NCBI RefSeq assembly: GCF_019598945.1
Contig: NZ_CP080598.1
Coordinates: forward strand, 1,426,001-1,490,000
Direction: 5' to 3'
Source: Sphaerospermopsis torques-reginae ITEP-024
GTDB lineage: Bacteria > Cyanobacteriota > Cyanobacteriia > Cyanobacteriales > Nostocaceae
Length of the DNA stretch: 64,000 nucleotides
Position 1 is the stretch's first letter. Each line of letters starts with the position of its first letter. Below the pieces are notes generated by a model. That model did no database searches, was not told where the DNA came from, and was given only the letters and a program-made list of their open reading frames with translations. Both the position numbers and the translations under genes were made by a program. This document shows, one piece after another, positions 9,634 to 13,748 of this stretch.

Positions 9634-11004
9634 TTAGCATGGATATCGCTGGAGAAAGGCTGCTGTTTCTACGTGAGCGGTTTGGGGAAAAAAGTCGGCT
9701 GGCTGTACTCTTGTAAGATGGTATTGTCCATGTTCACACAATAATTTTAGGTCACGAGCCAAGGTGGCTACTTTACAACTGACGTAAATAATGCGCGAAG
9801 GTTTCAGGTTCAGTAAAGATTTGATGACATTAGCTTCACATCCTTTACGTGGCGGATCAAGTAAGACAATATCTGGTATAATTCCCAAATTTGGTAAATT
9901 TTTCTCCACTGCTCCTACTTGAAATGTAACATTATTAATTCCGTTTTGTTGGGCATTGAAAATTGCCTGTTCTACGGCTGCTGATTGCACTTCCAAGCCA
10001 ATAACTTGGCGTGCTTGTTTTGCTAGGGGTAAAGTTAAAGTACCAATACCACAATAGGCATCTACTAAAACTTCATGACCTTGTAAATTTAATTCTGACT
10101 GAATGACTTGTAACAGTGCTTCAGCCGTTTCTGTATGAACTTGAAAAAATGTATCCGGGCGGATTTGAAATTCTAAACCAGCGAATTTTTCTCGCAGGTA
10201 AGGAATCCCTGCAATACAAGTTGTATCTTTTCCAAATATAGCATTTGTGCGATCGCTATTGCGATTTAAACAAACTCCTACTAACTGGGGATAACGCTGT
10301 AACCATTGCTGTGCTTGGGTTTCAATGTCTGGTAAATTTCTATCTTTGACTACTAAAGTTAGTAGCATTTCCCCTGTGCGGCGACCTATGCGTAAACTTA
10401 AATGGCGAATTTGTCCTTGGTGGCGGTTTTCGTCATAAATTGACCAACCCCGCTTTTGAATATCCTGCTTGACTTCAGCTAATAAAGGATTTAAACGGGA
10501 GTCTTGAACTGGACATTGATTTAAGTTAATGAGTTGATGGCTACCTTTTTGGTAATAACCGGCTTGAACTTGTCCGGTAGCTGAGATACGGACGGGATAG
10601 GTGGCTTTGTTGCGATAACCTAAAGATGATGATGTTGATAAGACGGGAGCTACTGGGGGGTTAACAAAACCGCCTATTCTTTCTAAAGCTTGAGTGACTT
10701 GATTATGCTTTGCTGTAAGCTGATAATCATAATTTATATGTTGCCACTGACAACCACCACATTTATCAGCAACAATACAACTAGGTCGGATACGTTGTGG
10801 AGAGGGTTGGAGGATTTGTTTGAGGGTAGCATGAGCATATTTGGGTTTAACGTGTGTAAGTCTGACTAAAGTGCGATCGCTCACTACTGTATCGGGAACA
10901 AAAACCACACGCTGATCAAAGCGCCCTACACCATCGCCAGTGTCGCTTAAATCAGAAATTTCCAGTTCTATTACTTCACCCTGTTGCCAAACTGTATTAG
11001 TCAT
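9634..11004 (-). CDS. rlmD: 23S rRNA (uracil-5-)-methyltransferase, RlmD/RumA type
   Basis: SAM-dependent TrmA/RumA-family enzyme that makes 5-methyluridine in 23S rRNA. The 456-residue protein starts with a TRAM domain (about 5-65, LEISDLSDTGDGVGRF), then carries an iron-sulfur cysteine cluster CIVADKCGGCQW (about 78-89) with a fourth Cys in QCPVQDS (about 163). The methyltransferase core has VDAYCGIGTLTLPLA (about 318-332) as SAM motif I, LLDPPRKGC (about 384-392) and the nucleophile motif IYVSCKVATLARDL (about 406-419). The exact position methylated is inferred; cyanobacteria often have a single RumA-like protein. Upstream of the start there are TAGTTAT repeat units. Confidence 0.88.
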   Translation of the reverse strand: MTNTVWQQGEVIELEISDLSDTGDGVGRFDQRVVFVPDTVVSDRTLVRLTHVKPKYAHATLKQILQPSPQRIRPSCIVADKCGGCQWQHINYDYQLTAKHNQVTQALERIGGFVNPPVAPVLSTSSSLGYRNKATYPVRISATGQVQAGYYQKGSHQLINLNQCPVQDSRLNPLLAEVKQDIQKRGWSIYDENRHQGQIRHLSLRIGRRTGEMLLTLVVKDRNLPDIETQAQQWLQRYPQLVGVCLNRNSDRTNAIFGKDTTCIAGIPYLREKFAGLEFQIRPDTFFQVHTETAEALLQVIQSELNLQGHEVLVDAYCGIGTLTLPLAKQARQVIGLEVQSAAVEQAIFNAQQNGINNVTFQVGAVEKNLPNLGIIPDIVLLDPPRKGCEANVIKSLLNLKPSRIIYVSCKVATLARDLKLLCEHGQYHLTRVQPADFFPQTAHVETAAFLQRYPC

Positions 11005-11155
11005 TAGTTATTAGTTATTAGTTATTAGTCATTAGTCATTAGTTATTAGTTGGTGGAAATAGAGAATAGGCAAAAGTTACAAAATATTAATTTAATTTGC
11101 ATAATTTACACCAATTACCAATTACCTATTACCAATTACCAATTACCAATATACC
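11004..11155. repeat. AGTTATT and CCAATTA repeats
   Basis: An array of TTAGTTA/TTAGTCA units directly upstream of rlmD (to about 11050) and a second array of ACCAATT units at 11110-11155, which sits about 65 bases before apcD. Confidence 0.85.
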
Positions 11156-11219
11156 CTTCACTTCTGTACCGCGAACTGGTTAAACTAACAAATAATATAA
11201 TTTCCGTGATTACATAATC

Positions 11220-11705
11220 ATGACTGTAATTAGCCAAGTTATTCTCCAAGCTGACGACGAACTGCGTTACCCTAGCAGTGGCGAACTCAAAAGTATCAAA
11301 GAATTTTTGCAAACAGGCGCACAGCGGACTAGAATCGCTGCTACCCTGTCAGAAAACGAAAAAAAGATAGTTCAGGAAGCAACCAAAAAACTTTGGCAAA
11401 AGCGCCCTGACTTTATCGCTCCCGGTGGCAATGCTTACGGAGATAAGCAACGCGCTTTATGTATCCGTGACTTCGGCTGGTATCTGCGCTTAATTACCTA
11501 TGGTGTGCTTGCAGGTGACAAAGAACCAATTGAAAAAATTGGGTTGATTGGTGTACGGGAAATGTACAATTCTCTGGGTGTTCCTGTACCGGGAATGGTA
11601 GAAGCTATCAACTGCCTTAAACAAGCATCCTTGGGCTTACTAAGTGGTGAAGATGCAGCAGCAGCAGAGCCTTACTTTGATTACATCATTCAAGCGATGT
11701 CCTAA
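11220..11705 (+). CDS. apcD: Allophycocyanin alpha-B chain
   Basis: ApcD is the minor allophycocyanin alpha subunit of the phycobilisome core and one of the two terminal emitters that pass excitation to chlorophyll; work in other cyanobacteria links it chiefly to photosystem I and state transitions. The 161-residue protein is full length. Residues [30 protein letters not shown] (read as segments around 60-90) contain the phycocyanobilin-binding Cys in [10 protein letters not shown], and the downstream [22 protein letters not shown] is typical of allophycocyanin. It is monocistronic, away from the main apcABC cluster, as is usual for apcD. The start ATG at 11220 is clear. Confidence 0.96.
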
Positions 11706-11910
11706 TCATAAGGTTTCTCTGCAACATTAGCGATCGCCATCACGGCTGACGCTTTGCGTAAAGCTACTGGTGATCTTGCTCATTTGATCACTCTTTCCCC
11801 ACACTTGATAGTTGCTATGGCAAAATTATGGCAACATATTTGTCAAGTTATTATAAAGTTGTGGGGATATTTTATGTGCATCTACTGACACTCACCAAAA
11901 ACAAAAAAGA

Positions 11911-11928
11911 CCGACAGGAGGCTGTCGG
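11911..11928 (-). terminator. Intrinsic terminator on the minus strand
   Basis: On the minus strand the sequence reads CCGACAG, a four-base loop, CTGTCGG, then TCTTTTTTGTTTTT. This is a perfect 7-bp GC-rich stem followed by a U-rich tail, a strong rho-independent terminator. On the plus strand there is no U-run. No minus-strand gene ends here, which implies an unannotated short transcript from somewhere between about 11930 and 12190. Confidence 0.8.
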
Positions 11929-12019
11929 ACATTAGTTGTGTTCCCTATTAATGACTCGGCTAGAGTTCAGTTATAAGTAATTATCCCAAGATGCTCATTC
12001 TTAGAGGAGGATCTTCATC

Positions 12020-12055
12020 ATGGATAATGGTGATTGTAATCATATTCATTGGTGA
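12020..12055 (+). CDS. Possible 11-codon leader-type peptide
   Basis: A short frame, MDNGDCNHIHW, begins with ATG nine bases after AGAGGAGG, one of the best ribosome-binding sequences in the window. It is followed by the inverted repeat GTGATTTTAATCAC and lies about 145 bases before the lipoprotein gene on the same strand. It may be a small protein, a leader or chance. The frame is too short for sequence statistics to decide. Confidence 0.25.
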   Translation: MDNGDCNHIHW

Positions 12056-12199
12056 TTTTAATCACTGAAGAATTGAAGAAAAAATGTATACCTTTGAGCA
12101 ATTGATTGAAAGAGGACAATACATCATTTTGATGGCAGCAGCAACAGTCAATTGCATATATGGGTCAAATTTCTGTAAACACTAACACATTTTTGTAAA

Positions 12200-12853
12200 A
12201 TGTATCTGAATCTTATTAAAGTAGTAGCAGCAACAATCTTATTAAGTGGAATTACTGCTTGTACTACACCTACCCAAAACCAAATTTCTGCGGACAATAG
12301 CCGCATTACCGAAAATAAACCCATTGTAGATAGTAATAAATCTGCACAAAATAGACCAAATAATAAAACAGCTACTATTTCTGTGGAAGGGGAAAAAACC
12401 AGCATTTCCTTAAAACTTTACCAGGAGAAAAATGTGTTCAGTACCTACTTTCCTGAAGAAGATTTTGTAGTTAAATCAGAAGATGCAAATCAAAGAAAAG
12501 CAGCGAAGTTTATTGTTAATTTTGGGGGTGTAAAAAATGAAGATGCTTATGTTAAATTTGTTTTTCCTGATGATTTAAAAACTTTAGAAGAAGTCAAAAA
12601 TTTTATTAATAGTAAAGATGGGATAATTGCATCTAATGGTTGGAAAGTTGGCAGTCGTAGCGATACAGTAACCTATCCTTGGGCAAAAGAAAAGATTACT
12701 TTTAGTAAAGGTCAAGAGATTTTTGGTAATATTTATATTGGAGAAGAAAAGGGTAAAGTATTTTATGTAATTACCCATTATCCAGCAGAATATGGAGATG
12801 GTTTTGAACCAAGAGCAGATTTGATTTTAAGTAATTTGGAAATAGGTGGATAA
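12200..12853 (+). CDS. Predicted lipoprotein of unknown function
   Basis: A 217-residue protein with a type II signal sequence: short charged N-terminus, hydrophobic VVAATILLSGI and the lipobox LSGITAC with Cys at residue 21. It is therefore expected to be lipid-anchored on the outer face of the plasma membrane or in the outer membrane, after processing by the signal peptidase encoded at 29153-29629. A Ser/Asn/Lys-rich linker (about 25-55) precedes a globular part with KAAKFIVNFGGVKNEDAYVKF and a repeated EEV/DG segment. I do not recognise the family. It may form a unit with the DUF2887 gene 67 bases downstream, though that gene lacks functional connection. Confidence 0.7.
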   Translation: MYLNLIKVVAATILLSGITACTTPTQNQISADNSRITENKPIVDSNKSAQNRPNNKTATISVEGEKTSISLKLYQEKNVFSTYFPEEDFVVKSEDANQRKAAKFIVNFGGVKNEDAYVKFVFPDDLKTLEEVKNFINSKDGIIASNGWKVGSRSDTVTYPWAKEKITFSKGQEIFGNIYIGEEKGKVFYVITHYPAEYGDGFEPRADLILSNLEIGG

Positions 12854-12920: not shown

Positions 12921-13748
12921 GTGAAAACAGATACTATCTTCTATCAACTCTTTCAAACATTACCAAATATTCTTTTTGAATTGATTGGTAAACCAGCTAC
13001 AGAAGCAGAAAATTATCAATTTACATCTGTAGAAATAAAAGAGTTAGCATTTCGGTTTGATGGGTTATTCATACCAAATTCAGATATACCTCAACAACCG
13101 ATTTATTTTGTTGAGGTGCAATTTCAACCAAAAACGGATTTTTACTGGAAATTATTTGCGGAAATCTTTGTTTACCTCAATCAATATAAACCAAAAAATG
13201 ATTTTCATGCAGTGGCAATTTTTGCTAAACGCAGTTTAGATCCTGGTGTACCTATCCAGTATCGAGGTTTGCTAATGAGTCAGCAAGTAACAATCATTTA
13301 TTTAGATGAGTTAGAAGTCACAAATGATAACTCTGTAGGGTTGGGTATGGTACAGTTAGTAGTAGAGAAAGAAGAAACTGCAATTGATCACAGTCAACAG
13401 TTAATGGACAAATCTCGACAACAATTTACAGATGCAGCCCAAAGGCAAAAAGTCTTACAATTGTTAGAGACGATCTTAGTTTATAAATTCAATAATTTAA
13501 CTCGTCAGGAGATAGAAGCAATGTTTACTTTTGAAGATTTAAAGCAAACAAGATATTTCCGAGATGTTGCGGAAGAAGAAAGAAAAAAAGGTAGGTTACA
13601 AGGTAGGTTAGAAGGTAGGTTAGAAACAGTACCTCTATTAATAGAGTTAGGTTTGACGGTGGAAGAAATAGCGACAAGGTTAGATGTAGATATTGAAGCA
13701 GTGAGGAAGGTTGCGGAAAAATCTGGGGATCAAAATTCTGTGGAGTAG
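12921..13748 (+). CDS. Rpn family (DUF2887) nuclease-like protein
   Basis: A 275-residue protein of the PD-(D/E)XK Rpn/PDDEXK group that is abundant in cyanobacteria. The nuclease-like core is near the N-terminus: ELAFRFDGLFIP (D at about 49), then IYFVEVQFQPK (about 66-76), which supplies the D...ExQ pattern. The C-terminal part has the family's GRLQGRLEGRLETV repeat (about 228-241), followed by a small helical segment LTVEEIATRLDVDIEAVRKV. Rpn relatives promote RecA-independent recombination in E. coli; a role here is only inferred. The start is a GTG at 12921. Such genes are often multi-copy and mobile-like. Confidence 0.8.
   Translation: MKTDTIFYQLFQTLPNILFELIGKPATEAENYQFTSVEIKELAFRFDGLFIPNSDIPQQPIYFVEVQFQPKTDFYWKLFAEIFVYLNQYKPKNDFHAVAIFAKRSLDPGVPIQYRGLLMSQQVTIIYLDELEVTNDNSVGLGMVQLVVEKEETAIDHSQQLMDKSRQQFTDAAQRQKVLQLLETILVYKFNNLTRQEIEAMFTFEDLKQTRYFRDVAEEERKKGRLQGRLEGRLETVPLLIELGLTVEEIATRLDVDIEAVRKVAEKSGDQNSVE

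Follow-up and report, generated by a model that had tools for sequence, protein, structure and literature searches.

The window analysed here, a 64,000-nucleotide stretch of Sphaerospermopsis torques-reginae ITEP-024 DNA, contains a phycobilisome gene, apcD, and a lipoprotein-like gene, both on the plus strand. Between them lies a group of minus-strand features that we read as a putative small RNA gene with its upstream sites:

11220-11705, plus strand: apcD, phycobilisome protein, allophycocyanin-alpha-like, the convergent neighbour
11796-11867, plus strand: conserved hairpin 3' of apcD with a CCCCACA/TGTGGGG base (z -4.64)
11903-11928, minus strand: intrinsic terminator, stem-loop (11928-11911) and U-tract; pairing is kept where the stem varies
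11904-11971, minus strand: predicted small RNA of ~68 nt; start from the -10 element and a sharp conservation edge, end from the U-tract
11937-11971, minus strand: 5' core of 35 nt, ACTGAACTCTAGCCGAGTCATTAATAGGGAACACA; 34 of the 38 copies in 30 BLAST-selected loci have it unchanged
11937-11955, minus strand: linker, GUCAUUAAUAGGGAACACA, predicted unpaired from folding and the diverse-copy alignment
11954-11966, minus strand: small 5' hairpin ACUC-UAGCC-GAGU, predicted by folding
11980-11985, minus strand: -10-like hexamer GATAAT, by pattern match
12008-12021, minus strand: site 2, ATGATGAAGATCCT, weakly CRP-like, centred at -43.5 and 22 bp from the -10 hexamer
12030-12043, minus strand: site 1, ATGATTACAATCAC, centred at -65.5, with 9 of 10 consensus letters and one letter lost
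12052-12065, minus strand: third site, GTGATTAAAATCAC, centred at -87.5, a perfect match to GTGATNNNNATCAC 22 bp further upstream
12200-12853, plus strand: lipoprotein-like gene, the other flank of the terminator region

The name apcD is an assignment by the earlier reader that we have kept; the best NCBIfam match, ApcA, is below its cut-off. The hairpin at 11796-11867 is kept in sequence and place across many heterocystous genera and stops before the small RNA. It is probably the 3' end of apcD, and could be an apcD terminator or a 3'-UTR-derived RNA. Runs of short repeats (TTAGTTATTAGTTATTAG; CCAATTACCAATTACC) occupy 11004-11217, between a minus-strand open reading frame (9634-11004) and apcD. 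A gene for a DUF2887 protein (12921-13748, plus strand) follows the lipoprotein gene, and a similar open reading frame is the nearest one upstream of the small RNA in some other loci.

The terminator and the extent of the RNA

On the minus strand, 11928-11911 reads CCGACAG-CCTC-CTGTCGG and is followed by TCTTTTTTGTTTTT. The strong terminator that the earlier note had described here, with a 7-bp stem, a four-base loop and a tail, is thus present exactly as described. Its remark that no minus-strand gene feeds this terminator also holds, both flanking genes being on the plus strand. From the terminator to the start of the lipoprotein gene, the minus strand has a single open reading frame of at least 40 aa (12148-12405, 85 aa); it is mostly antisense to the lipoprotein gene and matched no Pfam family.

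Within 3 kb there are 3 terminator-like sites, as compared with 1.9 ± 1.6 in shuffles, which is not beyond chance. The hairpin alone therefore proves little, since such sites are not rarer than shuffles predict. However, 194 of the 217 family genomes contain a conserved unit with this stem at its 3' terminus. In an alignment of 62 copies, changes on both sides are seen at 3 of the 10 terminator pairs (shuffles give 2.2 for the whole structure), amounting to 10 both-side-change cells against 4.0 in shuffles; in an alignment of 22 diverse copies they are seen at 4 pairs, against a shuffled mean of 0.9. We conclude that the terminator is real and ends a predicted minus-strand small RNA gene, a case that rests on conservation.

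That there is no RNA at all, the hairpin being a leftover or a terminator that halts read-through towards apcD, would fit the chance-level terminator counts. It is nevertheless highly improbable, as promoter, start, core and terminator travel as a unit, also in tandem and away from apcD, and the core precedes the terminator and is better conserved than it.

The comparison strongly supports the earlier proposal of a minus-strand small RNA transcribed towards apcD, but not its extent of 11930-12190. The RNA most likely is shorter and runs from ~11971 to ~11904, and 11972 to ~12065 would be promoter and regulatory DNA. Among 141 copies from relatives, 125 have 73-77 nt between the start and the U-tract. 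A closed reading frame is absent in 124 of 142 copies, and the longest is 24 aa. A predicted promoter of its own, a sharp start, an intrinsic terminator and no reading frame are the features of a stand-alone intergenic small RNA gene.

The RNA of the window folds only slightly better than its shuffles (z -1.34; 15 of 200 shuffles were as good). The first hairpin is predicted from folding and is invariant in the 62-copy alignment, so that covariation says nothing on it there. When six copies were folded singly, two from one locus (L167) formed a longer first hairpin with other letters, and two others (L163 and L178) did not form it. Distant copies keep the linker as GUCAUCAAYAGGGAACACA or nearly so, and, being predicted to be unpaired, it may well be the likeliest interaction face of the RNA.

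Conservation and neighbourhood of the small RNA gene

Of 60 related genomes searched with 11700-12210, 40 had some match, and the best-kept block lay at about 11919-12042 of the window. Core-type matches were found in 38 genomes, and the best matches alone were made into loci (30 fetched, with 38 copies). The four cores among these that are not identical to the 35-nt core differ from it at 1, 1, 1 and 4 bases. The predicted RNA thus keeps nearly the same first 35 bases in many filamentous cyanobacteria that fix nitrogen. Further loci were added by a pattern scan with an exact 25-base pattern with one free position, among the matches listed. Together the BLAST and pattern-scan loci (124, again among the matches listed) gave 142 distinct copies. 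Over these, per-base identity is 0.97-1.00 at positions 1-35 and rises abruptly at position 1; this core identity is partly a product of selection, because part of the core was used to choose the added loci. The 34 of 38 identical cores and the model count of 194 of 217 genomes are freer of this bias. No exact match to the core pattern was found in viral contigs.

A covariance model built from the 62 copies accounts for these 194 family genomes, which represent 50 of 56 genera and include one weak match counted as present (G093, E 5e-4). In a sample of the phylum the same model matched 53 of 386 genomes. Strong matches numbered 48, 32 of them in the family and 16 outside it, the latter among 344 sampled genomes. 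A broader model built from 22 diverse copies matched 63 of the 386 at E up to 0.05 and returned the same 16 strong matches outside the family. With this model no match fell between E 7.6e-11 and 0.001, and weak matches outside the family (E 0.001 to 0.05) were treated as noise; the weak small RNA matches dropped there were G371, G506, G244 and G480. Three non-matching genomes outside the listing (G017, G224 and G240) were taken to lack the small RNA.

The source genome has a single copy, the next model match being at E 1.8. Two to five matches are found in 15 of the 217 family genomes, with the second match weak in at least one (G184). In Calothrix- and Cyanomargarita-type genomes as many as 5 copies stand in tandem, each with its own promoter, core and terminator. 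Comparison between genomes thus establishes the predicted gene unit and its boundaries.

Downstream of the small RNA, a convergent apcD is seen in 121 of 144 loci, at a distance of 138-560 nt in all of these but one (1010 nt). Of the other loci, 17 are too short to tell (they end within 900 nt) and 6 lack apcD; the 144-locus set contains some regions twice. The loci of 13 strong carriers outside the family were retrieved (all of the 16 but G384, G390 and G571). Here apcD adjoins the small RNA in 4 loci and is missing from 9, one of which has just 790 nt downstream. Two loci of a family genome, G021, also lack apcD. This genome has four copies at two places (L177 and L176), and its three-copy array is flanked by CBS-domain-, HEAT-repeat- and response-regulator-like open reading frames, named by eye. 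On the upstream side, the nearest open reading frame of at least 100 aa falls by single-linkage clustering in a cluster that includes PurL-like proteins (our own naming of the cluster) in 41 of 102 loci, and in a cluster with the lipoprotein in 17 of 102.

The frequent convergence with apcD, seen in the 121 loci and in 4 of 13 outside the family, is what would be expected if a small RNA or a 3'-overlapping RNA acted in cis on apcD. We consider this very unlikely. The small RNA is found without apcD in 9 of the 13 outside loci and in the two loci of G021, the hairpin of apcD ends before the small RNA, and the start regions of 139 apcD genes (many of them near-duplicates) pair with it no better than shuffles do (mean -10.67 against -10.49 kcal/mol). 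With apcD beside the small RNA in so few of the loci outside the family, cis control of this gene is unlikely to be the core role. Judged by these loci, the predicted small RNA is an independent gene, for which the place beside apcD is a long-lived but not universal address.

Upstream sites and a CRP-like protein

The -10 pattern was found in 98 of the 142 copies, as CATAAT in 94, mostly starting at -14. Further upstream, every one of the 142 copies has GTGA-N6-TCAC, mostly at -65.5, as compared with 1 of 2840 shuffles. Near this position 140 of the 142 copies agree with GTGATNNNNATCAC in at least 9 of its 10 fixed letters, whereas 1 of 710 shuffles does so. An exact copy of the full TGTGAN6TCACA is present in 42 of the 142. 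The shuffles used for promoter sites, and for start-region pairing, keep base composition only. In 132 of 142 copies site 1 is accompanied, 22 bp away, by a weaker second site, ATGATTAAGATCGT, at -43.5. Six other distinct copies share the perfect third site of the window at -87.5, and another matches it at 9 of the 10 letters. Two copies from a genus with small genomes (g106; L163 and L175) have a single site at -44.5.

The cyanobacterial regulators SyCRP1 and AnCrpA bind TGTGAN6TCACA, and in most of the CRP-activated promoters found the -10 box lies ~22 bp downstream of the site (PMC2633013). The 22 bp between site 2 and the -10 hexamer is the spacing reported there. Palindromic GTGA-N6-TCAC sites at an activating distance resemble what a CRP-family activator would need, and it is again the comparison between genomes that establishes these predicted sites. 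No NtcA site (GTAN8TAC) and no HLR1-like motif was found in the 142 copies.

The source genome encodes a CRP-like protein (G000, 1575936-1576631). Its nearest solved relatives are CRP-family regulators, and its NCBIfam CRP match is below the model cut-off. Within the family, a CRP ortholog was detected in 190 of 194 carriers of the small RNA and in 11 of 23 non-carriers (Fisher p 1.2e-10, ignoring relatedness). Outside the family it was found in all 16 strong carriers, as compared with 72 of the 344 sampled genomes (Fisher p 3.2e-12, also ignoring relatedness), and 56 of these 72 CRP-bearing genomes lack the small RNA. In these counts G095 and G119 (CRP matches 1.5e-41 and 2e-44; G119 is 54% complete) were scored as without ortholog, and 11 rows of family f36 with CRP matches of ~1e-40 to 1e-45 were left out of the outside-family set. 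From the ortholog and carrier counts it follows that the small RNA is rarely found without the CRP-like protein, while the protein is often found without the small RNA.

Losses of the small RNA would be informative in this respect. Over half of the family genomes that lack it (12 of 23, one of the 12 only 54% complete) also lack a detected CRP ortholog. In genus g69 all five genomes (G132-G136) are without the small RNA and keep the CRP-like protein, unlike genera g14 and g61, which are without both. This pair of situations would be useful for reading the effect of losing the small RNA.

The promoter might instead respond to another CRP/FNR-family protein or to an unrelated factor, and not to the ortholog of cAMP-CRP. 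The genome has 10 matches to the CRP-type helix-turn-helix family, site 2 departs from the CRP consensus, and 4 of the 194 family carriers have no detected CRP ortholog. We nevertheless regard another regulator as rather unlikely, as the main site fits the published CRP consensus (PMC2633013), NtcA sites are absent from all 142 copies, and the CRP-like protein and the small RNA occur together.

Mode of action and relation to known small RNAs

Our main reading, to which we give a probability of roughly two in three, is that of a CRP-activated, trans-acting small RNA: a stand-alone gene of ~68 nt with its own promoter and terminator, and a linker that pairs with several mRNAs. A CRP-family activator, of the cyanobacterial cAMP receptor protein type, would bind one to three sites 22 bp apart, the nearest ~43 bp upstream, and switch on the promoter with its -10 element. 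Transcription would start at ~11971, the near-invariant 5' part would expose an accessible linker beside a short hairpin, and the RNA would end at the terminator hairpin. The linker would most likely base-pair with several mRNAs in trans. Of these steps, we infer transcription, cAMP-CRP control and pairing in trans.

Pairing tests gave little. Antisense 17-mers with up to 3 mismatches exceeded the reversed control in 2 of 12 genomes (31 against 13 in G248 and 17 against 8 in G258, counts that include the small RNA gene itself) and were below it in the other 10. There is thus no general antisense enrichment, the control being exceeded in so few genomes. For the start regions of six CRP genes, pairing was -10.2 kcal/mol, as compared with -11.45 kcal/mol for shuffles. 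Such results would also agree with a small RNA whose conserved 5' part has a protein, or another RNA (as a sponge), as its partner and not mRNAs; a stretch of 35 almost fixed bases is also long for a pairing seed. We find this unlikely, although less so than action in cis on apcD, given that the linker is predicted to be unpaired, as pairing small RNAs need, and that no binding partner is known.

cAMP is a long-known signal in cyanobacteria, and its outputs are only partly understood. In Anabaena species its level goes up under far-red light and under nitrogen starvation (PMC4284465). Tentatively, and with somewhat less than even odds, the small RNA family might predate the heterocystous cyanobacteria and form a main RNA arm of cyanobacterial cAMP-CRP signalling, which would adjust light harvesting, or the use of carbon and nitrogen, to a rise in cAMP. 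The RNA would then be turned on by CRP dimers on sites phased by 22 bp and would present a binding face that hardly varies. If true, selection on dose and timing would lie behind the frequent adjacency to apcD and the tandem duplication seen in Calothrix-type genomes. A conserved RNA that is apparently under CRP control in genetically tractable genera would give the cAMP pathway a testable output. It would also add a family to Rfam, and existing transcriptomes could be re-read for the small RNA.

A scan of the window with Rfam 15 at gathering score gave no match at the small RNA and only a tRNA elsewhere, and 14 distant loci matched no family at that score; at E up to 10 there were 8 weak chance matches, all below gathering scores. 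Literature searches by sequence did not find CTGAACTCTAGCCGAG and gave no cyanobacterial title for AGGGAACACA among the matches listed. Searches on PmgR1, IsaR1, SyCRP1, Ncr0700, AnCrpA, CRP or apcD with small RNA gave no title that we recognised as the present RNA. A screen in Nostoc PCC 7120, a heterocystous relative, joined start sites to terminators (PMC4734099). One entry in its Table 1, 1938093f, is 70 nt long and so comes close to the length expected; the text consulted does not mention apcD and gives no sequence or neighbour. The present RNA may therefore be listed there, unnamed. No description of the putative family was found in the literature searched, and it differs from Yfr1, Yfr2, NsiR1 and PsrR1 in the features tested.

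Yfr1 and Yfr2 are likewise short, widely conserved, stand-alone small RNAs with conserved unpaired motifs, and the present small RNA is found in far fewer lineages than either. The unpaired motif of Yfr1, CTCCTCACAC, and the 5' motif of Yfr2, GTGTGAGGAG, which is complementary to Yfr1 and was taken from printed primers, both occur in 0 of 142 copies, so identity with either was rejected. PsrR1 (SyR1) is a trans-encoded small RNA conserved in cyanobacteria that acts on photosynthesis genes (PMC6202907). The present RNA resembles it as a conserved cyanobacterial small RNA, and may share its action in trans. It was rejected as PsrR1 because the broad model, run on two Synechocystis-type PsrR1 loci, gave a best E of 0.28, outside the PsrR1 gene.

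NsiR1 is a heterocyst-specific small RNA found in Nostoc. In heterocystous cyanobacteria it is ~60 nt long and occurs in tandem copies with individual promoters (PMC9045159). Small size and tandem copies with their own promoters are also seen here. NsiR1 lies upstream of hetF with a DIF1 promoter motif, whereas here the neighbour is apcD. The core letters of DIF1 are TCCGGA. With this core in 0 of 142 copies, and apcD convergent in most loci, identity with NsiR1 was rejected. Among small RNAs of other phyla, CyaR of enterobacteria is activated by cAMP-CRP. We claim no homology with CyaR, and the likeness would lie in this mode of activation: control by CRP is the most interesting property that we infer for the family.
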